NCBI RefSeq assembly: GCF_024753565.1
Contig: NZ_JANTPT010000001.1
Coordinates: 1,088,513-1,152,512, forward strand
Reading direction: 5' to 3'
Length of the DNA stretch: 64,000 bases
Origin: Mechercharimyces sp. CAU 1602
GTDB taxonomy: Bacteria > Bacillota > Bacilli > Thermoactinomycetales > JANTPT01
Part shown: positions 833-35,879 of the stretch, in pieces
Layout: every line of letters starts with the position of its first letter
Position numbering within the stretch: position 1 is the stretch's first letter
Translations under genes and position numbers: made by a program
Notes under the pieces: generated by a model
The model's input: only the letters and a program-made list of their open reading frames with translations
The model's database searches: none
What the model was told of the DNA's origin: nothing

Positions 833-1270
833 TCAGATAGAAATATTTAAATCCGAATTACGGCTAGTAATTTCGTAGAATTGAGAATTACTTACATTAG
901 AGGAGGCGGTTACTCGAAACAATGTTGCTTGATTAAAAAAAGCTGCTCGAACAAGTGGACTGTAAACGCGGAATAAGACCCGTGCTATATTTGAAAGAGT
1001 GGGTGCATAATTTACACGAACAATGGGCTGTCCGGTACGAGGTACATTCACTCCTCTTTGTGCTATAACAGATCCTTGCCAAGATTTAGACATTGTGTTA
1101 TATAGAGCCCAAAAATTTCTATTTTGTATTGCCCCCGTCGGCATCGTGGCTAATTTTTCAGAAATAAGGGATTGGAAAGACACTTGCATTAGGGGTTCAA
1201 AATCACCGTTTTCCGGAAAATAGCGTGATGTTGCATTAAAAGTAATCTCTGTTCCATACGTCGTTGGCAT
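833..1270 (-). CDS. Unknown 145-residue protein
   Basis: I do not recognise a family. The protein has no signal peptide, membrane segment or cysteines, and is rich in Asn, Ser and aromatic residues. Short segments such as FNATSRYFPEN and PIVRVNYAPTL suggest beta structure. An AGGTAGAG ribosome site precedes the ATG at 1270. It lies about 110 bases downstream of an SBBP/collagen gene on the same strand and upstream of a CotA-like gene, so a spore-surface role is possible. That rests on context only. Confidence 0.6.
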   Translation of the reverse strand: MPTTYGTEITFNATSRYFPENGDFEPLMQVSFQSLISEKLATMPTGAIQNRNFWALYNTMSKSWQGSVIAQRGVNVPRTGQPIVRVNYAPTLSNIARVLFRVYSPLVRAAFFNQATLFRVTASSNVSNSQFYEITSRNSDLNISI

Positions 1271-1381: not shown

Positions 1382-3508
1382 TTAAAAATTCAACTCCCCT
1401 TCACCTCTAGTCCGTGGTCCTCTAGGGCCACGCGGTCCACGAATTCCTCTCATTCCCCTAGGTCCAGTGGAGCCAGTAGCCCCACGTGGACCTACAGAAG
1501 TAAGGGAGCCCACCTTCGCAACAAAGGCGCTTTCGTTGTTATTGGTGGAGGGGCTGGTTGTTTGAAAAGCGGCGAGTGTGACTGGAAAGTTAGTAGAAGA
1601 AGTTTCGCCTGTAAGATAAGCAATCCCATCGAAATCTACCGCGATATCTCTCCCAGTATCCTCGCCTATCCCTCCCAAGTAGGAAGAGAAGGAAATTCCT
1701 TGTCCGGAATAACTCATCTGGGTAACAAAAACATCAGAAGAAAATTGTGTGGTGGTTGCAGAAGCCAAGCTATCCTGAAAAGCATCGGAAGTAATAGGAA
1801 AGTCCGTCGAAAACGTAGCCCCTGTTACCCAGGCAGCTCCAAAATCATCCACTGCAATTCCATTTCCAATCTGAGCGACATCACCACCTAGATAGGTGGA
1901 GTAAACTGTATTTCTACCTGTTGCATTCATTTTAGTAACAAATGCGGTCGGTGCAAAAGCGGTAGAGGTAGATTTCATCGTCTGGAATGCATTATTGGTT
2001 ACCGGAAAATCTGTTGATACAGTAAATCCCGTCACATAAGCATTCTTAGCTTCATCAAGATCAATCGCCATACCCATGGTTACTAAGCTTCCGCCAAGGT
2101 ACGTTGAATACAGCAGTGAGGTTCCGGTGGAATTTAACTTAGTAATAAAAGCGTTTACAACTCCAGGTGGTGTTGATTGAAAAGCTCCAGAAGTTGTGGG
2201 GAAATCGCTGGAAGTGGTATTGCCTGTCACATAGGCTTGTTGGTTTTGATCTATAGCAATACCACTCCCATCATCTTCTCCACTTCCTCCTAAAAAAGTA
2301 GAATAGAGAAGACCGCTTCCTGAATCATTGATTTTCGTAACAAATACATCTCTGCCGCCACCAAATAGAGTTTGGAACGCTCCCGATGTAGTGGGAAAAT
2401 TAGTCGCATCAGTATCCCCTACAATATACGCTCGATTATCACTGTCAACAGACACGCTAGTACCGATACTTAAGCCCAATCCACCCCCTAGATAAGTGGA
2501 ATAAAGAAGCGAGCTCCCTTGTGCATTAATCTTCAGAAGGTAAGCATCTGCCAAACCTGCAAGCACTGTCTGAAAAGCCCCTGACGTTACAGGGAAATCA
2601 GAAGAAGCTGTACTGCCTGTCACATAGGCATTTTGTACTAGATCAACAGTAATGCCAAGCCCTACATCTACTGAACTTCCTCCAATAAATGTAGAATAAA
2701 GAAGAGAATTTCCTCTGGCATTAAATTTCGTAATATAGGCATCCATTGCTACAATAGAAGCATTCATTGTTTGAAATGAACCCGATGTAATAGGGAAATT
2801 TGTAGATGTCGTACTTCCAGTTACATAAGCATTACCTAAAGAATCAACAGCAATCGCCTGCCCATCATCAACTCCACTTCCCCCTAAATAAGACACATAA
2901 AAAACAACCGGGTCTATTGTAAGCAGTTGGGATCGATCGTATGCTTCGTCTATTTTAAACCCAACGGTATGATCCGGATACAGGTGAAAATGAGTGGAAA
3001 TCGGTATTCTTTTACCATTTATCCATTGATAGCTAATAGGTTTTTGTTCCCTTACCATACCTTGGTTCGTAAAGACATATAGATCTCCTTCTTCGTTAAT
3101 ATAAGGATGGCTCCCTCCTTCATAATGAAAGCGTATATCTTCGATACATGAACCCGGCTGAACAAGTACGTCATACTTTAATGGCTCACATCCGTAAAAA
3201 ACGATATCTATACCTGGCCATACGTTTTCATACACAACGCCTTCATAATAGGTATAGTCACCCATATGAAGCCCCTTGCGCCCGATTCCCCTCAACTTCA
3301 TCTCTTTACACGAGTGAATAAAATGAATATTTACATATTTACAAAATTTAAACCCAGCATTTGACGGAACATACCCATAGCATATTCCGTCTGCATATAA
3401 CATAAGATTTACCTCTTTTCGTTCCGATCTATAGATAGACTCCCCCTGATCAACGTGATGGAAGAAATTGAAGAGTGATTGCCCACTCTTATTTCTTATA
3501 TGATTCAT
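1382..3508 (-). CDS. SBBP-repeat seven-blade beta-propeller protein with collagen-like tail (paralogue 1)
   Basis: The 708-residue protein has three parts. Residues about 1-200 form an N-terminal domain shared with the paralogues at 12849 and 29476. Then come seven SBBP repeats, each starting Y/F-S-T/S-Y/F-L-G-G and containing a variant of AYVTGxTxSxxFPxTxxAFQ; seven repeats predict a seven-bladed propeller. The C-terminus has nine Gly-X-Y triplets (mostly GPR) and ends RTRGEGELNF. There is no obvious secretion signal, which suits a protein deposited on a spore by the mother cell. The start at 3508 follows GGAGGGGAG. Its repeats are less regular than in the other two copies. The function is unknown; adhesion or exosporium structure is inferred. 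Confidence 0.85.
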   Translation of the reverse strand: MNHIRNKSGQSLFNFFHHVDQGESIYRSERKEVNLMLYADGICYGYVPSNAGFKFCKYVNIHFIHSCKEMKLRGIGRKGLHMGDYTYYEGVVYENVWPGIDIVFYGCEPLKYDVLVQPGSCIEDIRFHYEGGSHPYINEEGDLYVFTNQGMVREQKPISYQWINGKRIPISTHFHLYPDHTVGFKIDEAYDRSQLLTIDPVVFYVSYLGGSGVDDGQAIAVDSLGNAYVTGSTTSTNFPITSGSFQTMNASIVAMDAYITKFNARGNSLLYSTFIGGSSVDVGLGITVDLVQNAYVTGSTASSDFPVTSGAFQTVLAGLADAYLLKINAQGSSLLYSTYLGGGLGLSIGTSVSVDSDNRAYIVGDTDATNFPTTSGAFQTLFGGGRDVFVTKINDSGSGLLYSTFLGGSGEDDGSGIAIDQNQQAYVTGNTTSSDFPTTSGAFQSTPPGVVNAFITKLNSTGTSLLYSTYLGGSLVTMGMAIDLDEAKNAYVTGFTVSTDFPVTNNAFQTMKSTSTAFAPTAFVTKMNATGRNTVYSTYLGGDVAQIGNGIAVDDFGAAWVTGATFSTDFPITSDAFQDSLASATTTQFSSDVFVTQMSYSGQGISFSSYLGGIGEDTGRDIAVDFDGIAYLTGETSSTNFPVTLAAFQTTSPSTNNNESAFVAKVGSLTSVGPRGATGSTGPRGMRGIRGPRGPRGPRTRGEGELNF

Positions 3509-4292: not shown

Positions 4293-5075
4293 TTATATCA
4301 GCACAAGATTCGTATTACGATTATGTTGAACTATCCGTTGAAGGTTTGTCTTCACAAGATTACCTTCTACATCAAGTTCATATAATTTTTTCTCATAATT
4401 TTTTTCATATATTGAAAACAACTCATGTAGATCCGCTATATCATCTTGTAACCTTGCGCGATTATACTCCAACAGCAACATACCTACTCTATCCTTCATC
4501 AAATTGTTTAAGCCCATCAATGCTTGACATTCACTGCCCCCAATATCAAGCTTGAGTAAATGAATATATGATAAATCCTGTAAGTGCTCATCCAGCTCTA
4601 CACATTGAACCTCTATCTGCTGAGAATGATCAGGAAATCGCTGGTGATCTTGGGGATGATGGTTTTTTAAAGAACTATACATAATATAGCGTTCAGATTG
4701 ATAAAAGCTCATCACTTTATTTTCCGAATAAGCCGCTAACGGAAATGGGATCACCTCTTCGCCAAATCCGTTTATAATGAGATTATCTCTTAAATAAGAA
4801 TAAAGTGTTGGATGAGGTTCGTAACTGATACATCTTCCCTCTTTTCCCACTCTTCTACCCATCAGTACCGTGTAAAATCCACTACCCGCCCCTACGTCAA
4901 CCACCGTGTGACCGCGGGAGACATTTTTGAGCAAAAACGATGTGACGTGCGGGTCTATATCTCCTTTGTCCATCAACTTAGGAGTGATACTTCGATCACT
5001 TGCAGGTATAAGTAGTCGTCCTCCATAACAGGGGCGTATTAGCATTCGATCATTCCCGAGGTATGTGCCATTCAT
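4293..5075 (-). CDS. FkbM-family SAM-dependent methyltransferase (tandem copy 1)
   Basis: 260 residues. The SAM-binding motif I VDVGAGSGFYT is at 59-69, the acidic post-I segment SYEPHP follows, and the conserved FkbM segment LKLDIGGSE is intact at about residue 175. FkbM enzymes O-methylate sugars or natural products. The sequence starts with a short MNGTYLGNDRMLIRPCYGGR head shared with its neighbour, so the two are tandem duplicates. The gap to the upstream copy is 29 bases with a repeated AGGAGG ribosome site, so they are probably co-transcribed. The substrate is unknown. Confidence 0.85.
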   Translation of the reverse strand: MNGTYLGNDRMLIRPCYGGRLLIPASDRSITPKLMDKGDIDPHVTSFLLKNVSRGHTVVDVGAGSGFYTVLMGRRVGKEGRCISYEPHPTLYSYLRDNLIINGFGEEVIPFPLAAYSENKVMSFYQSERYIMYSSLKNHHPQDHQRFPDHSQQIEVQCVELDEHLQDLSYIHLLKLDIGGSECQALMGLNNLMKDRVGMLLLEYNRARLQDDIADLHELFSIYEKNYEKKLYELDVEGNLVKTNLQRIVQHNRNTNLVLI

Positions 5076-5104: not shown

Positions 5105-5887
5105 TTAACAAAGTACAAGCTGAGCATAATGACAAGTCTCAATCACCCTCTGCTCCTCTACTTCGACTAAATCTCCCTTCGATTCTACTTCAAGTAGCCG
5201 TTTACCATAATTGCGTCTGTAGATGAACAACAGCTCCCGCAACTCAGAAATCTCCTCTTTTTCCCATAAGTTTCGCTCAAATTCGAAGATGAGGAAGCGA
5301 ATCTTATCTTTCATGAGGTCACCCAAACCTAACAGCGTATCAATCCCTTTCCGTCCCACACTTATTTTCAAAAAATCTATATGGGGAAGATGATGGAGAT
5401 GTTCGCATATAGCAACCCCCTGAACTTCGATGGTTGAACCATTCTCATCCTCCTGACATAACGGTTCTTTAGAAGAAGAGAGAGTAGAGTCCATGGTTAA
5501 CCGCTCTACTTGCAGAAAGTTCACTCTTTTTTGCTCGGAGTAGGCAGCCAGCGGATATAGATTGCTTTCTGTATGAATTCCATTAAGAATTAAATTCTCA
5601 GCCAAAAGTGGATATAAAGTAGGATGTGGTTCATAACATATACATGTCCCCTCTGTTCCTACTCGTTGCCCCATTAAGACTGCATAATAACCTACATGTG
5701 CTCCCACATCAACAACAATTTGTCCTCTCCCTACATATTGGGACAAAATAGTAGTAAGTGCGGGTTGATACTCCCCTTCTGTAAGTAGCAATGGAGTTAG
5801 GCTAAGATCATCTGCGGGCAGAATCAGTTTTCCACCATACTTAGGACGAACCAGCACCTTGTTTTTACCAATATACGACCCATACAA
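5105..5887 (-). CDS. FkbM-family methyltransferase (tandem copy 2, divergent)
   Basis: 260 residues, same length and head as the downstream copy, with motif I VVDVGAHVGYY at 58-68 and CYEPHP after it. The usual FkbM LKxDxxGxE segment is replaced here by LKISVGRKG, losing the acidic residues kept in copy 1. It may therefore have altered specificity or reduced activity. The start is TTG at 5887, with GGAGGG seven bases upstream. The upstream small membrane-protein frame overlaps its first 64 bases. Confidence 0.8.
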   Translation of the reverse strand: MYGSYIGKNKVLVRPKYGGKLILPADDLSLTPLLLTEGEYQPALTTILSQYVGRGQIVVDVGAHVGYYAVLMGQRVGTEGTCICYEPHPTLYPLLAENLILNGIHTESNLYPLAAYSEQKRVNFLQVERLTMDSTLSSSKEPLCQEDENGSTIEVQGVAICEHLHHLPHIDFLKISVGRKGIDTLLGLGDLMKDKIRFLIFEFERNLWEKEEISELRELLFIYRRNYGKRLLEVESKGDLVEVEEQRVIETCHYAQLVLC

Positions 5888-12848: not shown

Positions 12849-14933
12849 ATGCTACAAGCGAGTCATCAATACCGCACATACGCTGCTTTATATTGCGAAG
12901 AGGATGGGTATCTTTTTCTTCCTGAGAAGATTCACTTCTCAATAGAGCCCGTTTATTTATCTAAAAATACAGAGTTACCAACAATTACGCTTCTCTTTCA
13001 TCAGAGCAACCCTTATACCCTTATTCAAAAACAAGAGGGAAGCAAAAACACTATCTTATATAAAGAGTTGTGGCCCAATATTGATGCCCTCTTTTATTGT
13101 ACAAAGCATAGGTTCAAATACGAATTTATCGTGAATCCTGGAGCCCACATTAGCGATATTCAACTCTCTTATGAGGGGATAGACCGAGTAACACCCGATT
13201 CAATAGGAAACCTCTACATCCAGACATCAGGTGGAATCTTGTTTGAAAGAAAACCGGTAAGCTACCAACAATTTCGGGAACATGAGATTGCCACTCGTTT
13301 TTATTTGCATAAAGACAACCACATTCGTTTTATCGTCGAAGAGGAATACAATCATGATCAACCCCTTATTATTGACCCTGAGGTATTTTATTCCACCTTC
13401 CTTGGGGGAATGGATATGGATCGAGGAAATAGCATTGCCGTCGACTCCTTTAGATCTGCTTATATCACGGGGTTTACGGAGTCGACAAACTTTCCTACTA
13501 CCTCGGGTGCTTTCCAAACCACTCTTCGTGGAAACCGAGATGCCTTTGTTACAAAACTTAATACAACTGGCTCGTCTCTCATATACTCTACCTACCTTGG
13601 CGGAAGCGATATTGATAATGGACGAGGGATTACCGTCGATGATACTGGCTCTGCCTATGTAACGGGCAGCACAGAATCAACAAATTTCCCGATTACTTCT
13701 AACGCCTTTCAAACTTTTCTCGCAGGTGGAATTGACGCTTTCATTACAAAACTAAATGCGATGGGATCCTCCCTTCTCTTCTCCACTTATCTAGGTGGAT
13801 CAAATTCTGATATAGGTCAAAGTATCGCAGTTGACACTTTGGGTTTTTCCTATGTAACAGGAGAGACCACATCCACTGATTTCCCCGTCACAACCGGTGC
13901 TTTTCAAACAATATTTGCAGGCGCTACAGATGCATTTGTTTCCAAACTTTCTCCTTCAGGAAGCACTCTTTCTTACTCCACCTACCTCGGTGGAAATGGC
14001 TCCGATGGAACCAATGAAGGAGAAAGCATAAAGGTCGATTCGGTTGGAAATGCATACGTAGCAGGAGATACCTCTTCTACTAACTTTCCAGTTACATCTG
14101 GTGCCTTTCAAACCATGTTTGCCGGAGGAGTAGAGGATGCTTTTGTCACAAAGTTAAATGCGACTGGTACTGCTTTAATTTATTCCACCTATCTCGGCGG
14201 ACCTGGTAATGATGAAGGGAATTCGATCGATATTGATATTGATGGTGCAGCATATATCGCAGGAGAAGCTGGAGATGGGTTTCCTATTACAACCGATGCA
14301 TTCCAAACCATCTTTGGTGGAGGACAAAACGACGCTTTTGTAGCCAAACTAAACCCGAGTGGATCCGCGCTTGTCTATTCCACGTATCTTGGTGGCGCTG
14401 GCGAGGATGATGGGTTTGGTATTTCTGTCAATTCATTTGGAAGCGCCTGGACCACGGGAAATACAGAGTCAACAAACTTTCCCATCACACCTGACGCCAT
14501 TCAAGATAATTTGAGAGGAACAAATGACGCTTTCATCACCCAGATTAGTTTTGCTGGAACGGGAATTTCCTTCTCCACTTATCTTGGGGGAAGTGGCGCT
14601 GATCAAGGCAGAGCTATCACACTGGATCGCTTCGGTAATGCCTACGTAACAGGAGATACACAATCCGCTAACTTTCCTACCACTCCTGGCGTGGTACAAT
14701 CTCAATTCGGAGGAGATCGAGACGCATTTGTTGTTAAACTAGGCACACGCCTTGCTACCGGACCGACGGGTCCTACTGGACCTACTGGCAGTACAGGAGC
14801 CATCGGAGCAACGGGGCCTACTGGAGCGACTGGGGCGACTGGGGCCCAAGGAGTAAGAGGACCAAGGGGTAGACGAGGGCCAAGAGGACCAAGAGGGCCT
14901 CGTGGGATTAGAGAAGGAGAGTTCGGCGAATAG
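12849..14933 (+). CDS. SBBP-repeat seven-blade beta-propeller protein with collagen-like tail (paralogue 2)
   Basis: 694 residues. An N-terminal domain (about 1-175) with the conserved RPLxxDPEVF-like end is followed by seven SBBP repeats of about 64 residues (YSTYLGG... AFVTKLN). After them, 17 Gly-X-Y triplets begin as GPT/GAT and finish as GPR, with an acidic end REGEFGE. Thr-rich GXT triplets resemble the glycosylated BclA-type collagen regions of spore filaments. The start has AAAGGAGGA. It is monocistronic, bounded by a SigK-like promoter and a strong terminator. A role at the spore surface is inferred. Confidence 0.88.
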
Positions 14934-28898: not shown

Positions 28899-29438
28899 CT
28901 ACTTCATGGCATCTACAATAAGTGAAGGGAATACCATCTTCTCACTATTACGAGGGTCAATCCGTCGTGAGCGGTAGATAACTCCATCCTTAGCTTCCCA
29001 TGCTACAGCATGAAAATCCCCTTCTTCATCGAAGTATTCCAATAGCCTCACCATAAAACCCGCCTGTTCACATAGTTGAGACAATGTTTTATAGGTATAT
29101 AAAATCTTATGACCGGCTGCAGGATGATCTCTTGGTCCTGGGCCTCCCACTTGTACGACCCGCTGATATCCCTCATCAGGAAAATAGCCGTCGGGAACAG
29201 CACAGCGAAAGTGTCCACCAGGCTTGAGGTAACGATAACATCGTCTCATCGCCTCTAGCCCCTCCTCATAAGTGAGATGTTCCAGCACATGTTCTGCTAT
29301 TATCGCAGAGATAGAAGCAGGTTGAAAACGGCTGGACCAATCTTTTTCAGATAATAAATTTACTTCCGACTCATGAGTGTGAATCCAACCTGGGTTATTA
29401 TGATACTCTCCTGCTCCCAAAACGAGCTTTATTGACAT
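28899..29438 (-). CDS. Class I SAM methyltransferase linked to the SBBP/collagen gene
   Basis: 179 residues from ATG 29438; AGGAG lies just upstream. The frame stays open further back but only by running antisense through the collagen repeat. IIAEHVLEHLTYEEG and RYLKPGGHFRCAVPDGYF are typical Methyltransf_11 motifs. Motif I is short (VLGAGEYHN). It begins 37 bases after the SBBP/collagen stop with no terminator between, so both are likely expressed from the same SigK-like promoter. It might modify the collagen tail or a glycan on it; this is inference. Confidence 0.8.
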   Translation of the reverse strand: MSIKLVLGAGEYHNNPGWIHTHESEVNLLSEKDWSSRFQPASISAIIAEHVLEHLTYEEGLEAMRRCYRYLKPGGHFRCAVPDGYFPDEGYQRVVQVGGPGPRDHPAAGHKILYTYKTLSQLCEQAGFMVRLLEYFDEEGDFHAVAWEAKDGVIYRSRRIDPRNSEKMVFPSLIVDAMK

Positions 29439-29475
29439 GATAGTACTCCTATTCCTTTTGTTTCTTTTGTTTACC

Positions 29476-31524
29476 CTACAATCCCATCTCGCCACCACTA
29501 GCCCCACGTGGCCCTCTCGGCCCTCTCGGTCCGCGCCGTCCCCTTGGCCCTCGTGGCCCTGTTGCTCCTGTAGCTCCGGCCGCCCCTGTAGGGCCAGTCG
29601 CTCCCGTTGGACCGGTAACACCGATAGAAGGTTGACCCACTTTCGTTACAAAAGCATCCAGTCCTCCTCCAAATTGACTCTGGAAAGCAGCAAAAGTAAC
29701 CGGGAAGTTCGTTGAACTGGTTCCTCCAGTAAAGTAGGCATTATCTTGACTATCCAGCGCTACACCATTGCCTTGATCAGAGGCACTTCCACCCAAATAG
29801 GAGGAAAAAGAGATGCCTTGCCCCGAAAAACTCAATTGCGTAATGATGGCATCTTGAGTGCCATTGAGGCTATCTTGAAAGGCATCTGAAGTAAGCGGGA
29901 AATCGGTAGAAGTAGTATTTCCAGTTACCCAGGCTGAACCAAAGGAATCAACCGCGATTCTGAAAATCAGATCGGTGCTACCTCCTCCCAAGTAAGTGGA
30001 GTAAACCAACGCACTCCCTGATGGATTCAACTTAGAGACAAACCCATCGCGAGTTCCACTTAGTACAGTTTGAAAGGCATTAGGTGTTGTTGGAAAATCC
30101 GTGGAATCGGTAAATCCTCCTGCATAAGCATTATTCGCCTCATCTAGAGCGATCCCACCCACCGAGTCTAGTGAACTCCCCCCCAAAAAAGTGGAATAAA
30201 TCAAGCTACTCCCCGTCGCACTCAGCTTTGATACAAACCCATCCGTACCTCCTGTCAATACTGTTTGGAATGCCCCCGTAGTCGTTGGAAAGTCGCTTGA
30301 ATTTGTCTGCCCTCCTATATAGGCGTTGGTTGCCTCATCTAACGCAATCCCCGAGCCCCTATCCGATCCACTCCCACCTAGGTAAGTAGAGTAGACTAAC
30401 GCACTTCCCGTCGTATTTAGCTTTGTCACAAACCCATCCGTACCTCCCCCAAATAGAGTTTGAAACGCACTTGTTGTTACTGGGAAGTTCGTAGAATTTG
30501 TAAATCCTGTGACATAAGCATTCCCAGGGTCATCAATCGCAAGATCCGTTCCCTGTTCCTCTCCGATTCCTCCTAAGTAAGTGGAATAGATAAGGGCAGA
30601 ACCAGTATCATTAAGTCGAGTCACAAATACATCTTGAGTGCCTCTACGCATCGTTTGAAATGCACCGGATGTAACCGGGAAATTGGCTGATGTGGTCGTA
30701 CCGGTAACAAAAGCTTCATCGCTCTCATTTACTGCAATCCCTGTAAATACAAGCGTAGTTGCCTCCGACCCAGAGCCCCCCAAATAAGTTGAATACAGCA
30801 AGGAAGATCCGGTAGCGTTTAGTCTTGTTACAAATGAATCAAATGACCCAGCTAATGTCGTTTGAAACGCTCCCGATGTTACAGGAAAATTAGGCGAAAT
30901 GGTTTGACCTATAAGAAACGCCTCTTGGCTACTATTAACCGCTATTCCTTCTCCCTGGTCAAAGTTACTTCCCCCCAGATAGGTTGAATAAAAGACCACC
31001 GGATCGATCAAAAGCGGCTGAGTAGCATCATAGTCAGCAACATCAAACCCTATGGATGCATCAGCAAAGAGGTGGAACGCGGTTGATACGAATTGCTTCT
31101 TTCCATGCATCCACTGAAAACTGATAGGCTTACCTTCACAGAGAAATCCCGTTGACATCGGGATGAGCAGATCACCCTGTTCAGTAAGAGTAAGGTTACA
31201 TCCTCCTTCATATTTTAAGCGAATATTATCTACACACGCTCCTGGCTGAACGAGGAGATCATATTTGAGATGTTCCTCCTGGTTAGAAAATATGACATCA
31301 ATCCCAGGCCACACACCTTCGTAGATCACTCGTTCGTATCCCGCTCCGTTTTGATTCATCCCCTTAGGGAAAGTTCCCCTACATGCATCTACAAACCGAA
31401 GGAACAACTCCTCCGTATCACTTAGTGCAATTCGTACTCCTTCCGACAGAAACGTATACCGGATTCCTTCTGTTGTCACGAAATAGGTATTCTTCTCTTG
31501 TGATTCAGCTTTTATTGATTTCAC
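29476..31524 (-). CDS. SBBP-repeat seven-blade beta-propeller protein with collagen-like tail (paralogue 3)
   Basis: 682 residues from GTG 31524, chosen because GGAGGG is six bases upstream; a frame from ATG 31548 lacks a ribosome site. The N-terminal domain (about 1-180) is followed by seven regular SBBP blades and then 14 Gly-X-Y triplets, GPT/GAT first and GPR/GRR last, ending SGGEMGL. The nucleotide repeats are well diverged, so the blade duplications are old. It is the first gene of an operon with the methyltransferase. Confidence 0.88.
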   Translation of the reverse strand: MKSIKAESQEKNTYFVTTEGIRYTFLSEGVRIALSDTEELFLRFVDACRGTFPKGMNQNGAGYERVIYEGVWPGIDVIFSNQEEHLKYDLLVQPGACVDNIRLKYEGGCNLTLTEQGDLLIPMSTGFLCEGKPISFQWMHGKKQFVSTAFHLFADASIGFDVADYDATQPLLIDPVVFYSTYLGGSNFDQGEGIAVNSSQEAFLIGQTISPNFPVTSGAFQTTLAGSFDSFVTRLNATGSSLLYSTYLGGSGSEATTLVFTGIAVNESDEAFVTGTTTSANFPVTSGAFQTMRRGTQDVFVTRLNDTGSALIYSTYLGGIGEEQGTDLAIDDPGNAYVTGFTNSTNFPVTTSAFQTLFGGGTDGFVTKLNTTGSALVYSTYLGGSGSDRGSGIALDEATNAYIGGQTNSSDFPTTTGAFQTVLTGGTDGFVSKLSATGSSLIYSTFLGGSSLDSVGGIALDEANNAYAGGFTDSTDFPTTPNAFQTVLSGTRDGFVSKLNPSGSALVYSTYLGGGSTDLIFRIAVDSFGSAWVTGNTTSTDFPLTSDAFQDSLNGTQDAIITQLSFSGQGISFSSYLGGSASDQGNGVALDSQDNAYFTGGTSSTNFPVTFAAFQSQFGGGLDAFVTKVGQPSIGVTGPTGATGPTGAAGATGATGPRGPRGRRGPRGPRGPRGASGGEMGL

Positions 31525-31558
31525 TTTTATCCCTCCAATGAATAACACAATGCCGCTT

Positions 31559-32932: not shown

Positions 32933-32975
32933 TTCAAAATAAGCGAATGCATCGAGGGATCAGGTGTTTTCAAGT

Positions 32976-33011
32976 AAAAGCGTCTCCTCTTTTTGTCGAG
33001 GAGACGCTTTT
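32976..33011. terminator. Bidirectional terminator
   Basis: AAAAGCGTCTCCTC (32976-32989) pairs with GAGGAGACGCTTTT (32998-33011). It ends both the SDR gene and the radical SAM gene. Confidence 0.9.
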
Positions 33012-33018
33012 ATTGTTT

Positions 33019-34920
33019 TCATTCTTGTAGTACTCCCTCCCCCTTTTGAGTGAGCAAAAGTTCTTTCATCTCTTCTGGAATCTCATATATCCCTTCTGGA
33101 ATAGCTAAAGCAAGATAGCGCCTTTCTTCATGTAACATCCATCCCCGATCAACAAACTCCTGTAGAGCCGCTGTCAACTCTTCCAAGCTTACCTTCCACC
33201 CCTGTTTCGTCATTTCCTGTAATAAGCTTTTGGCTGTCTTAATATCATCTGTACTTTGATATAGCTTTGCTTTCCATCCACTCAATTCGCTAATTTCTCC
33301 ATCCTCCTGTGTACGGTTATCAAAAAAGCGAATCCGATCTTCTATTTGAATATAACAAAAGAAGCTAGAATCATATCTACCACTCCATCTATCTATTTTC
33401 TTCTTCAGTTGATCGGCGTATTCACTAGGATTGCGCTGATCATCATAATCAAATTCAAAATAGTAAGCGATTTGAAAACGCTCTGCTTTACTTAATTGAG
33501 GATATAGGTATCGATAGGAGCGATTGTGTCTGATATTAATAATGCCAAATTGATCTGAGAAATCGAAGTAAGGACTAAAACGATCTAACCGAAAGGGTGC
33601 ACAGCATATCGGAGGGTGATAATGAACCAGTTTAGAAATGATCTCCTCAGCCACATATTGATAATCCGCAGGATCTTCACCCGGAAATCCATATAAGATG
33701 TTCCATGAAGGAACAATCCCAAATTCCTCGCACCATTTGAGTAAACGCACATTTTGCAGCATGGTGATTCCCTTGCGCATTCGCTTGAGTACATCTGTAA
33801 TCAAGCTTTCAATTCCAGGTTGGATAGAAGTAAAACCAGCTTTTTTTATCGCTTCCAGTTGATCTCTTTTAATATTTGCTTTGGTTTCGTAAAACAAATC
33901 AATCCCCAAATCAAGTTCGATCAGACGAGGAATAAAGTCTTGAAAGTACTTGTAGTCAATGATATTATCCACTGCTGCCATGCTCGTAGTATGTTTTTGA
34001 TAGCGTTTAAGTAAGTACACGATTTCATCAATAGCCCTATCGGCATCTTTACTGCGAAAGCGCATATTTAAACCATTTAAACCACAAAATGTGCAGTGTG
34101 ATTTCTCTCCCCACCAACATCCACGTGACGTTTCAAAGGGAATAGAAGGACGCAAGAATGAATCTAACCCTATTTTTTCAAAACCATCAAAGTAATCGTT
34201 GTAATCTGGATAGGGAAGCTGATCGAGATCAGTCATCATATTGGCCTTATGAGAAAACTTATGATCTAAGTTGGTAGGTGTAAGAATCCCAGGGATATCC
34301 TCTGTTGTTTCACCACATTCCATCCGTTTAAGAAGCGTAGGTAAAGAAAGGTCCCCTTCACCTTGACATACAAAATCAAGAAAAGAAAATGCCTTGATCA
34401 TGGCCACTCCCATCGGTCCTTCACAATTGGCCCCTCCCATCACAATTTTAATATGTGGCCACTTTTGTTTGATTCGTTGCGCCATCCCTAATGAGGCAAG
34501 ATTTTGCTCAAAAACAGAAGTAAAGCCGACAAGATCATATTGCTCCCAGTCTACATTCTGTAAGCAGTCATCTAAATAGCGAGGCATTAATTCTTTCATA
34601 CGTAGCAAATTTTCCGACTCACACCAACTTCCTCGTGTATCTCCTATTCGCTCGTTTACCAATTTTAAATAGGCAAGATCATCTTCACGGGAACTTGGAC
34701 GAAGTGATGAGGAGAAAATCCATTCCCCTAGTAACAATGACGGCAATGTAGCAGAGAGACGACGGTAAGTCGTTATTCCAATATAATCGATGAGATGAAG
34801 GTTGAGATAATGATTTTTGCATGTATGCCCATGCTGTTCCACTTGAGATTTTAATAAACCAATCCCGATTGACGGTCGCCCTAATGAAGCGAATGGCATA
34901 TTAACAAGTGCTATATGCAT
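33019..34920 (-). CDS. RiPP-maturation-type B12-binding radical SAM enzyme
   Basis: 633 residues from ATG 34920 with GGAGG upstream. The N-terminal third is a cobalamin-binding-like Rossmann domain (KIVMGGANCEGPMG at about 158-171). The radical SAM core begins with SRGCWWGEKSHCTFCG; its C-x7-C-x2-C ligands are C268, C276 and C279, the hallmark spacing and context of 'RiPP maturation radical SAM protein 1'. A helical C-terminal region follows. Related enzymes C-methylate peptides. The gene directly upstream encodes a possible substrate, separated by a hairpin. Confidence 0.85.
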   Translation of the reverse strand: MHIALVNMPFASLGRPSIGIGLLKSQVEQHGHTCKNHYLNLHLIDYIGITTYRRLSATLPSLLLGEWIFSSSLRPSSREDDLAYLKLVNERIGDTRGSWCESENLLRMKELMPRYLDDCLQNVDWEQYDLVGFTSVFEQNLASLGMAQRIKQKWPHIKIVMGGANCEGPMGVAMIKAFSFLDFVCQGEGDLSLPTLLKRMECGETTEDIPGILTPTNLDHKFSHKANMMTDLDQLPYPDYNDYFDGFEKIGLDSFLRPSIPFETSRGCWWGEKSHCTFCGLNGLNMRFRSKDADRAIDEIVYLLKRYQKHTTSMAAVDNIIDYKYFQDFIPRLIELDLGIDLFYETKANIKRDQLEAIKKAGFTSIQPGIESLITDVLKRMRKGITMLQNVRLLKWCEEFGIVPSWNILYGFPGEDPADYQYVAEEIISKLVHYHPPICCAPFRLDRFSPYFDFSDQFGIINIRHNRSYRYLYPQLSKAERFQIAYYFEFDYDDQRNPSEYADQLKKKIDRWSGRYDSSFFCYIQIEDRIRFFDNRTQEDGEISELSGWKAKLYQSTDDIKTAKSLLQEMTKQGWKVSLEELTAALQEFVDRGWMLHEERRYLALAIPEGIYEIPEEMKELLLTQKGEGVLQE

Positions 34921-34957
34921 AGATATAATCCTCCAATATCGTGATGAATCATGATAA

Positions 34958-34980
34958 GAAAAGGGGGAAGATCCCCCCTC
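34958..34980 (-). terminator. Attenuator-like hairpin between putative precursor and radical SAM gene
   Basis: On the minus strand, GGGGG-GATCTT-CCCCC followed by TTTTCTT. The stem is short but GC-only, so partial termination is likely. This would yield more substrate than enzyme mRNA, a common layout in peptide-modification operons. Confidence 0.65.
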
Positions 34981-34996
34981 AAAGCTGTATATTGAT

Positions 34997-35557
34997 TTAA
35001 CGTTGAGCTCTAATAACAGCTGCAAATTCTCCCGCTGTCATTAAAACACGGCGTAACCTCGTATTAACAGTTAGATTGCCTTGTACCACTATAACGGAAC
35101 TCATCGTTCCCGTAGAATCAGGGTATATTAAAGTTACTCCTTCTCCATTTCCTAATCTTACTGGAGCAGCTTCTCGAACGGCGGTGCCTACCGACACAAC
35201 CACTGATCTTCCCCTTAACAAAATCACTTGACTACGCAATGAATTAAAATTTCGCAAGTTAAATACAGAAATATTCCCAAGTTCAGCAACCAGATCCGGG
35301 GATAAGATACCTACTGAAACTCCGGGATCAACCGTACCTGGACCTTCTCTAAGAACATCCTCTCGAGCAACGCCTTCGAGGCCAACACCTTCTGGAGTAA
35401 TATTACCAGGATCATCAAAGAAAGCCCCTGGAGCTGGAGCAACTCCACGAGGGTCAACCGTGGTATCCCCCGGGACCGCTGCAGGGTCACTAGGAAAAAT
35501 AGTTGTGGGATCGGTTCTTCTCTTCTTAAGTTTTTTCTTACTAAAATGATGACTCAA
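34997..35557 (-). CDS. Unknown Pro/Asp/Gly-rich protein, candidate substrate of the radical SAM enzyme
   Basis: 186 residues; no family recognised. Residues 1-15 are basic (SKKKLKKRR). Residues 16-80 are low-complexity, with repeated Asp-Pro (TDP, SDP, VDP, DDP, VDPG) and Gly/Val/Glu, and no cysteine. Residues 85-186 look folded and beta-rich (VILLRGRSVVVSVG, VTLIYPDSTG, SSVIVVQGNLTVN). Start TTG 35557 has AGAGGAGG upstream. A CATAAGCTA element 28 bases before the start resembles a SigK -10. It is the first gene of the unit with the radical SAM enzyme; whether it is modified is unproven. Confidence 0.6.
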   Translation of the reverse strand: MSHHFSKKKLKKRRTDPTTIFPSDPAAVPGDTTVDPRGVAPAPGAFFDDPGNITPEGVGLEGVAREDVLREGPGTVDPGVSVGILSPDLVAELGNISVFNLRNFNSLRSQVILLRGRSVVVSVGTAVREAAPVRLGNGEGVTLIYPDSTGTMSSVIVVQGNLTVNTRLRRVLMTAGEFAAVIRAQR

Positions 35558-35879
35558 TAAACTAAACCTCCTCTCGTACTAACATAGCTTATGAATTCTA
35601 GGAAAATAGTTCTTGGACAATTAGGGTCACCTTTATTAGGCATTACGCCTTTTCTTTTTTTAGTGACAAACCAACGCTTTTTTCCTTGTAACAAGGAGAA
35701 GGAGAAAATGGTGTTGGAAACATGATTGGGCCTTAAGATATTGTTTGTATCGCAAACTTGTTTATGTATTTGAGGTTATCCTTTCATTTGTTGCATATTG
35801 ATAAATTCATGTAAAAATAGCTTATTCTTTTGACATCAAATATAAGGATATGCTTATATAAGAATGAGGTGATTTCATT
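35558..35879. other. Intergenic region, 322 bases, divergent promoters
   Basis: It holds the promoter of the leftward gene, with CATAAGCTA at 35593-35585 (minus strand) but no -35 at ideal spacing. It also holds the ars operator at 35840-35859 and an imperfect palindrome tGTTTGT-ATC-GCAAACt at 35742-35758 that resembles those at 48384 and 60262. No convincing gene was found. Confidence 0.5.
35840..35859 (+). promoter_or_regulatory. ArsR operator of the arsR-aqp-arsC operon
   Basis: ATATAAG-GATATG-CTTATAT, a perfect 7-bp inverted repeat ending about 20 bases before the arsR start. The sequence differs from the operators at 12645, so the two ArsR proteins probably have separate targets. Confidence 0.7.

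Follow-up and report, generated by a model that had tools for sequence, protein, structure and literature searches.

An unusual Cx7Cx2C motif is described for the C-methylases that act in the biosynthesis of polytheonamide and bottromycin (reviewed in PMC5682303). One of these enzymes, PoyC, methylates valine at the C-beta position (PMC5682303). Other B12 radical SAM enzymes can modify large proteins, as Mmp10 does with methyl-coenzyme M reductase (PMC9692996). Within the TIGR03975 (rSAM_ocin_1) family, short peptide substrates are usual, and an oversized substrate is rare, yet precedented. In Methylomagnum (L039), for example, a TIGR03975 enzyme adjoins CefA (Cys-every-fifth RiPP peptide), an oversized precursor of ~680 aa.

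Here we describe a TIGR03975 enzyme from Mechercharimyces sp. CAU 1602 and the orphan gene that precedes it, found within a 64,000-nt stretch of the genome (the window). The enzyme shares the SRGCWWGxKxxCxFCGLN motif and B12-binding region of its family. With PoyC and the bottromycin C-methyltransferases it shares Cx7Cx2C, the cobalamin-binding architecture and predicted sp3 C-methylation (PMC5682303), but those enzymes act on RiPP precursor cores, to which the substrate proposed here is not homologous. This partner is an orphan of 164–186 aa, not a Nif11, NHLP or short leader peptide as in other TIGR03975 systems. CefA is likewise oversized, but it is a Cys-repeat protein whose locus includes an extra SPASM maturase, and it has no similarity to the window partner. 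Mmp10 (MgmA) resembles the proposed system in that a full-size protein is C-methylated, as would be the case here (PMC9692996, PMC11796369). It differs in belonging to another enzyme subfamily and in targeting an enzyme active site in archaea.

The enzyme gene

33019–34920, minus strand: B12-binding radical SAM C-methyltransferase, TIGR03975 (rSAM_ocin_1), with Cx7Cx2C (family match and motif)
32973–33014, no strand assigned: strong intrinsic terminator (z -5.9) behind the enzyme gene, shared with a convergent SDR gene

The enzyme matches TIGR03975 over the full length of the model (positions 1–606), with 653 bits against a cut-off of 281.85 (E 4e-196). Its Cx7Cx2C motif, SRGCWWGEKSHCTFCGLN, is kept in 12 of 12 aligned enzymes. 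Together, these matches bear out the RiPP-maturation radical SAM signature reported in a preliminary description of the locus, which also placed both open reading frames correctly. The radical SAM domain (PF04055) is above its cut-off, while the B12-binding domain (PF02310; E 6e-6) reaches 26.5 bits, below the Pfam cut-off of 32.1. The predicted layout, an N-terminal B12-binding region with a radical SAM domain, is that of class B enzymes, and TokK is the closest solved structure. Translation starts at ATG 34920, which has a good ribosome-binding site ahead of it; a longer open reading frame from an upstream TTG was rejected as an artefact.

An orphan partner protein

34997–35557, minus strand: orphan partner, 186 aa, TTG start, the proposed substrate

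The upstream gene had been characterised as encoding a 186-residue protein with a basic head, an Asp-Pro segment and a beta-rich end, and all three parts are found. They comprise a head (residues 1–12), an Asp/Pro linker (16–84), and a beta-rich C-terminal part (85–186). The head is rich in Lys and Arg and has no acidic residue (7 K/R among the first 15 residues). Asp and Pro make up 28% of the 69-residue linker, which contains five DP dipeptides. The beta strands of the C-terminal part are seen in low-confidence predicted models.

The partner has no relatives in Pfam, NCBIfam, PHROG or PDB, and no detectable leader or known-precursor homology; PDB matches to Bcl-2 (E 0.06) are explained by the low-complexity linker. 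Structure prediction was unsuccessful (pLDDT 37 for the whole protein, 48 for the C-terminal part) because homologues were too few, the alignments holding two sequences. A fold search with these models gave zero matches at E 0.001 and, given the low pLDDT, no fold is claimed.

The partner was not found in any of the other 41 genomes sampled from the order, a set of 42 species where the window genome is the sole representative of its family. Overlapping draws of 399 class genomes and 398 phylum genomes gave no match either, nor did plasmids, phages and viral contigs. A pattern scan over 84,980 species, which sees close relatives only, gave no match. Weak profile matches across the 399 class genomes (E 0.001–0.1 per genome) were taken as chance. 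Within the searched collections, the partner appears to form an orphan family of two members.

A second copy of the gene pair

Searching the genome with each protein revealed a second partner and enzyme unit (G000:C1:1074606-1077049), inverted and 44 kb from the window unit. Gene order is the same in both units: partner, then enzyme. The two enzymes are 67% identical. The partners, 164–186 aa in length, share 75% identity over the first 12 residues, 35% with gaps in the linker, and 47% in the C-terminal part, where a Val-rich SVVVxVG is exact in both. In each unit, the best start for the partner is a TTG whose ribosome site is well placed. Between the copies, pN reaches 0.22 in the enzyme gene and 0.36 in the partner gene, and synonymous sites are saturated. 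Since synonymous change is saturated and protein change limited, the pair is old and, judged on these rates, both genes are under purifying selection.

The flanks of the two units are unrelated, with nothing in common beyond distant members of common families. The second unit has an ABC exporter upstream and a subtilase downstream. A sulfotransferase gene (L018:17214-18014, plus strand) lies directly 3' of this unit, and the subtilase gene is convergent with it.

The enzyme and the upstream gene had been paired from the window alone, and the second two-gene unit strongly supports this pairing. From the duplicate pair there is good reason to think that the two proteins function together, the simplest relation being that of enzyme and substrate. 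Because a diverged second copy of the exact pair exists, the partner is probably modified by the enzyme. The genome-neighbourhood search proposed in the preliminary description thus recovers the pair within its own genome, and the partner in no other genome searched. As the pair is carried by one genome only, this co-occurrence rests on a single duplication, not on independent lineages.

The nearest enzymes and their neighbours

TIGR03975 is rare in the class, being detected in 6 of 399 genomes at E 1e-50, five of them above the family cut-off. In the enzyme tree, the two window-genome enzymes pair up, and their sister is a pair comprising G349 and a Niallia plasmid (support 99/97 for the four). 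These sister loci have genes of 57 and 56 aa directly behind the enzyme (L015:9009-9182 and L034:6926-7096), and the two peptides share the leader L..D.F.....GEVVI. As each sister enzyme adjoins one peptide gene, substrates in this clade are as a rule encoded next to the enzyme.

The G349 and Niallia plasmid enzymes are the nearest to the window-genome pair, but their 56–57 aa downstream peptides have no significant similarity to the large partner. A resemblance between LSPDLVAELGNISVF of the partner and the sister leader LSPDAFHVNENGEVVI was rejected in a shuffle test (p 0.13–0.79 over the sister peptides), whereas the two sister peptides match one another strongly. More distant TIGR03975 loci encode a pheganomycin-type precursor, an Os1348 NHLP-type protein, or CefA.

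Promoter and hairpin

35585–35610, minus strand: SigK-like promoter AC-N15-CATAAGCTA, with its -10 at 35593–35585, 36 nt before the TTG start of the partner
34961–34980, minus strand: short intergenic G+C hairpin with a short T tract, not present in the second unit
1382–3508, minus strand: collagen-tailed SBBP protein
12849–14933, plus strand: collagen-tailed SBBP protein, exact SigK-like promoter
29476–31548, minus strand: collagen-tailed SBBP protein, exact SigK-like promoter

The SigK-like -10 reported before the first gene is real, and exact in the window unit; spacing is N15, compared with N16 in the consensus used (AC-N16-CATANNNTA). In the second unit, the corresponding sequence is CATATACTG, similarly spaced from the start and with one mismatch to the SigK-like -10. 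The background frequency of exact CATANNNTA in the window is ~0.02 per 60 nt per strand, and such sites occur 12–80 nt upstream of 8 of the 61 window genes. Four of the eight are at 36–43 nt, and precede the partner, two SBBP genes (starts 31548 and 12849), and an FkbM-type methyltransferase (start 5887), which is first in its transcript and has its site 41 nt upstream. This pattern, noticed post hoc and not in a pre-planned test, fits a common mother-cell regulon. Spore-stage expression, which had been suggested from the partner promoter, gains moderate support from the sites it appears to share with the SBBP and methyltransferase genes. The SBBP proteins of the window, two of three with exact SigK-like promoters, each carry DUF7948 along with seven SBBP beta-propeller repeats and a short, GPRGPRG-rich tail of collagen-like Gly-X-Y sequence, and they look like a spore-surface family.

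The GC-only hairpin between the genes, GAGGGGGGATCTTCCCCCTT followed by TTCTTATC, is also real, but the T-run described with it is short, and folding of the gap is unexceptional (z -1.1). This layout had been thought to raise the amount of precursor over enzyme. No hairpin occurs in the short intergenic gap of the second unit, so it is not a conserved device: a conserved attenuator was rejected, and a general dosage role is unsupported.

Proposed function

The two genes probably represent a dedicated modification unit, in which a C-methylase would act on a full-length neighbouring protein that is probably made during sporulation and may be located at the spore surface. We infer the following relation between enzyme and substrate, together with its target residues, chemistry, timing and location. 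The enzyme would be a class B (cobalamin-dependent) radical SAM methylase, transferring methyl groups from SAM, via methylcobalamin, to unactivated carbons. By analogy with its family, it would form methylcobalamin from SAM and cleave a second SAM to generate a deoxyadenosyl radical; this would take hydrogen from an sp3 carbon, to which the methyl group would be added (PMC5682303, PMC9692996). The substrate would be the adjoining 164–186-residue protein rather than a classical short precursor.

The Asp-Pro segment had been put forward as the target, but the linker is the least conserved of the three parts. Since SVVVxVG is kept exactly, Val, Ile or Thr-type residues in the conserved beta-rich C-terminal part are the likelier targets. 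The conserved basic head probably serves in recognition or localisation. Because the window unit is without a protease or exporter, the product is probably the full-length C-methylated partner. The partner would be made in the mother cell during sporulation, alongside the nearby collagen-tailed SBBP proteins, and may be a component of the spore surface.

Should the partner prove to be the substrate, an enzyme family known from peptide natural products would turn out to act on an entire protein, apparently uncleaved and belonging to a new family, possibly during spore assembly. Bacterial C-methylation would then have wider uses, and searches for short precursors would miss the substrates of such enzymes. 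A more specific proposal can be offered only tentatively: a RiPP-family B12 radical SAM enzyme might have been co-opted for the C-methylation of a full-length spore-surface structural protein, with a new orphan substrate family replacing the short peptide of the sister clade. If true, this would be a new kind of spore-coat modification.

Alternative explanations

The enzyme family and the gene pairing agree with the earlier description of a RiPP-like unit, but the cleaved peptide product at the heart of a RiPP reading is unsupported, as no peptidase or exporter gene is adjacent in the window unit. RiPP units are expected to combine a conserved pairing of enzyme and substrate gene, a recognised leader, and genes for a peptidase and an exporter that release the core. 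The first is found, in two units of one genome; the partner has no family match to a Nif11, NHLP or sister-clade leader; and the release genes are missing from the window unit. It is unlikely that the partner is an oversized RiPP precursor, from which proteins encoded at other loci would cut the methylated C-terminal part and export it as a small bioactive peptide. Such a pathway would suit the RiPP precursors that adjoin TIGR03975 enzymes elsewhere (pheganomycin type, Os1348 NHLP and CefA), and the exporter and subtilase on either side of the second unit. However, those ABC genes are ~460 nt away, with a hairpin between, and the partner has neither a leader–core boundary nor a GG/AA motif. 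Furthermore, conservation spans the whole 102-residue C-terminal part, not a short core.

The partner could instead be an accessory or recognition protein (an RRE-like partner or scaffold), with the real precursor elsewhere in the genome. Some RiPP enzymes have precursors encoded at a distance, and the partner is without known precursor homology. Nevertheless, we regard this as improbable. As first described, no Nif11- or NHLP-type gene is next to the window enzyme, and the window unit has no other small open reading frame able to serve as precursor. A conventional precursor elsewhere, which would have argued against the pairing, was sought across the genome; no Nif11 protein matched, nor did any sister-type leader in a search without a positive control. 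Because the partners diverge faster than the enzymes and vary in linker length, the partner is more substrate-like than adaptor-like.

That the two genes are unlinked neighbours co-duplicated by chance in one DNA segment is very unlikely: only a single event is seen, and hitch-hiking on it is conceivable, but the two copies diverged long ago (enzymes 67% and partners 47% identical, with saturated synonymous sites), and solely these two genes are still together, both open reading frames intact, between fully diverged flanks.

Other genes and loci

The FkbM-family methyltransferase genes of the window are in tandem (4293–5075 and 5105–5887, both minus strand). For another methyltransferase (28899–29621, minus strand), the longest open reading frame overlaps the end of a collagen-tailed gene in another frame, and translation probably begins at the internal ATG of MSIKLVLGAGEYHNN. 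A 145-aa orphan with no Pfam match (833–1270, minus strand) immediately follows an SBBP-collagen gene of the same strand.

Beyond the window genome, G036 and G226 make up a TIGR03975 clade of their own, in which a protein of 190–245 aa, and no short precursor, lies behind the enzyme (L020:5925-8557 and L016:3154-5651). In a Gemmatimonadaceae locus (L007:1635-8666), a TIGR03975 enzyme occurs with proteins that look like lanthipeptide-pathway LanC and LanB, names that come from reading the sequences and not from a family search. The same locus contains a small Cys-rich peptide open reading frame (L007:3681-3866).
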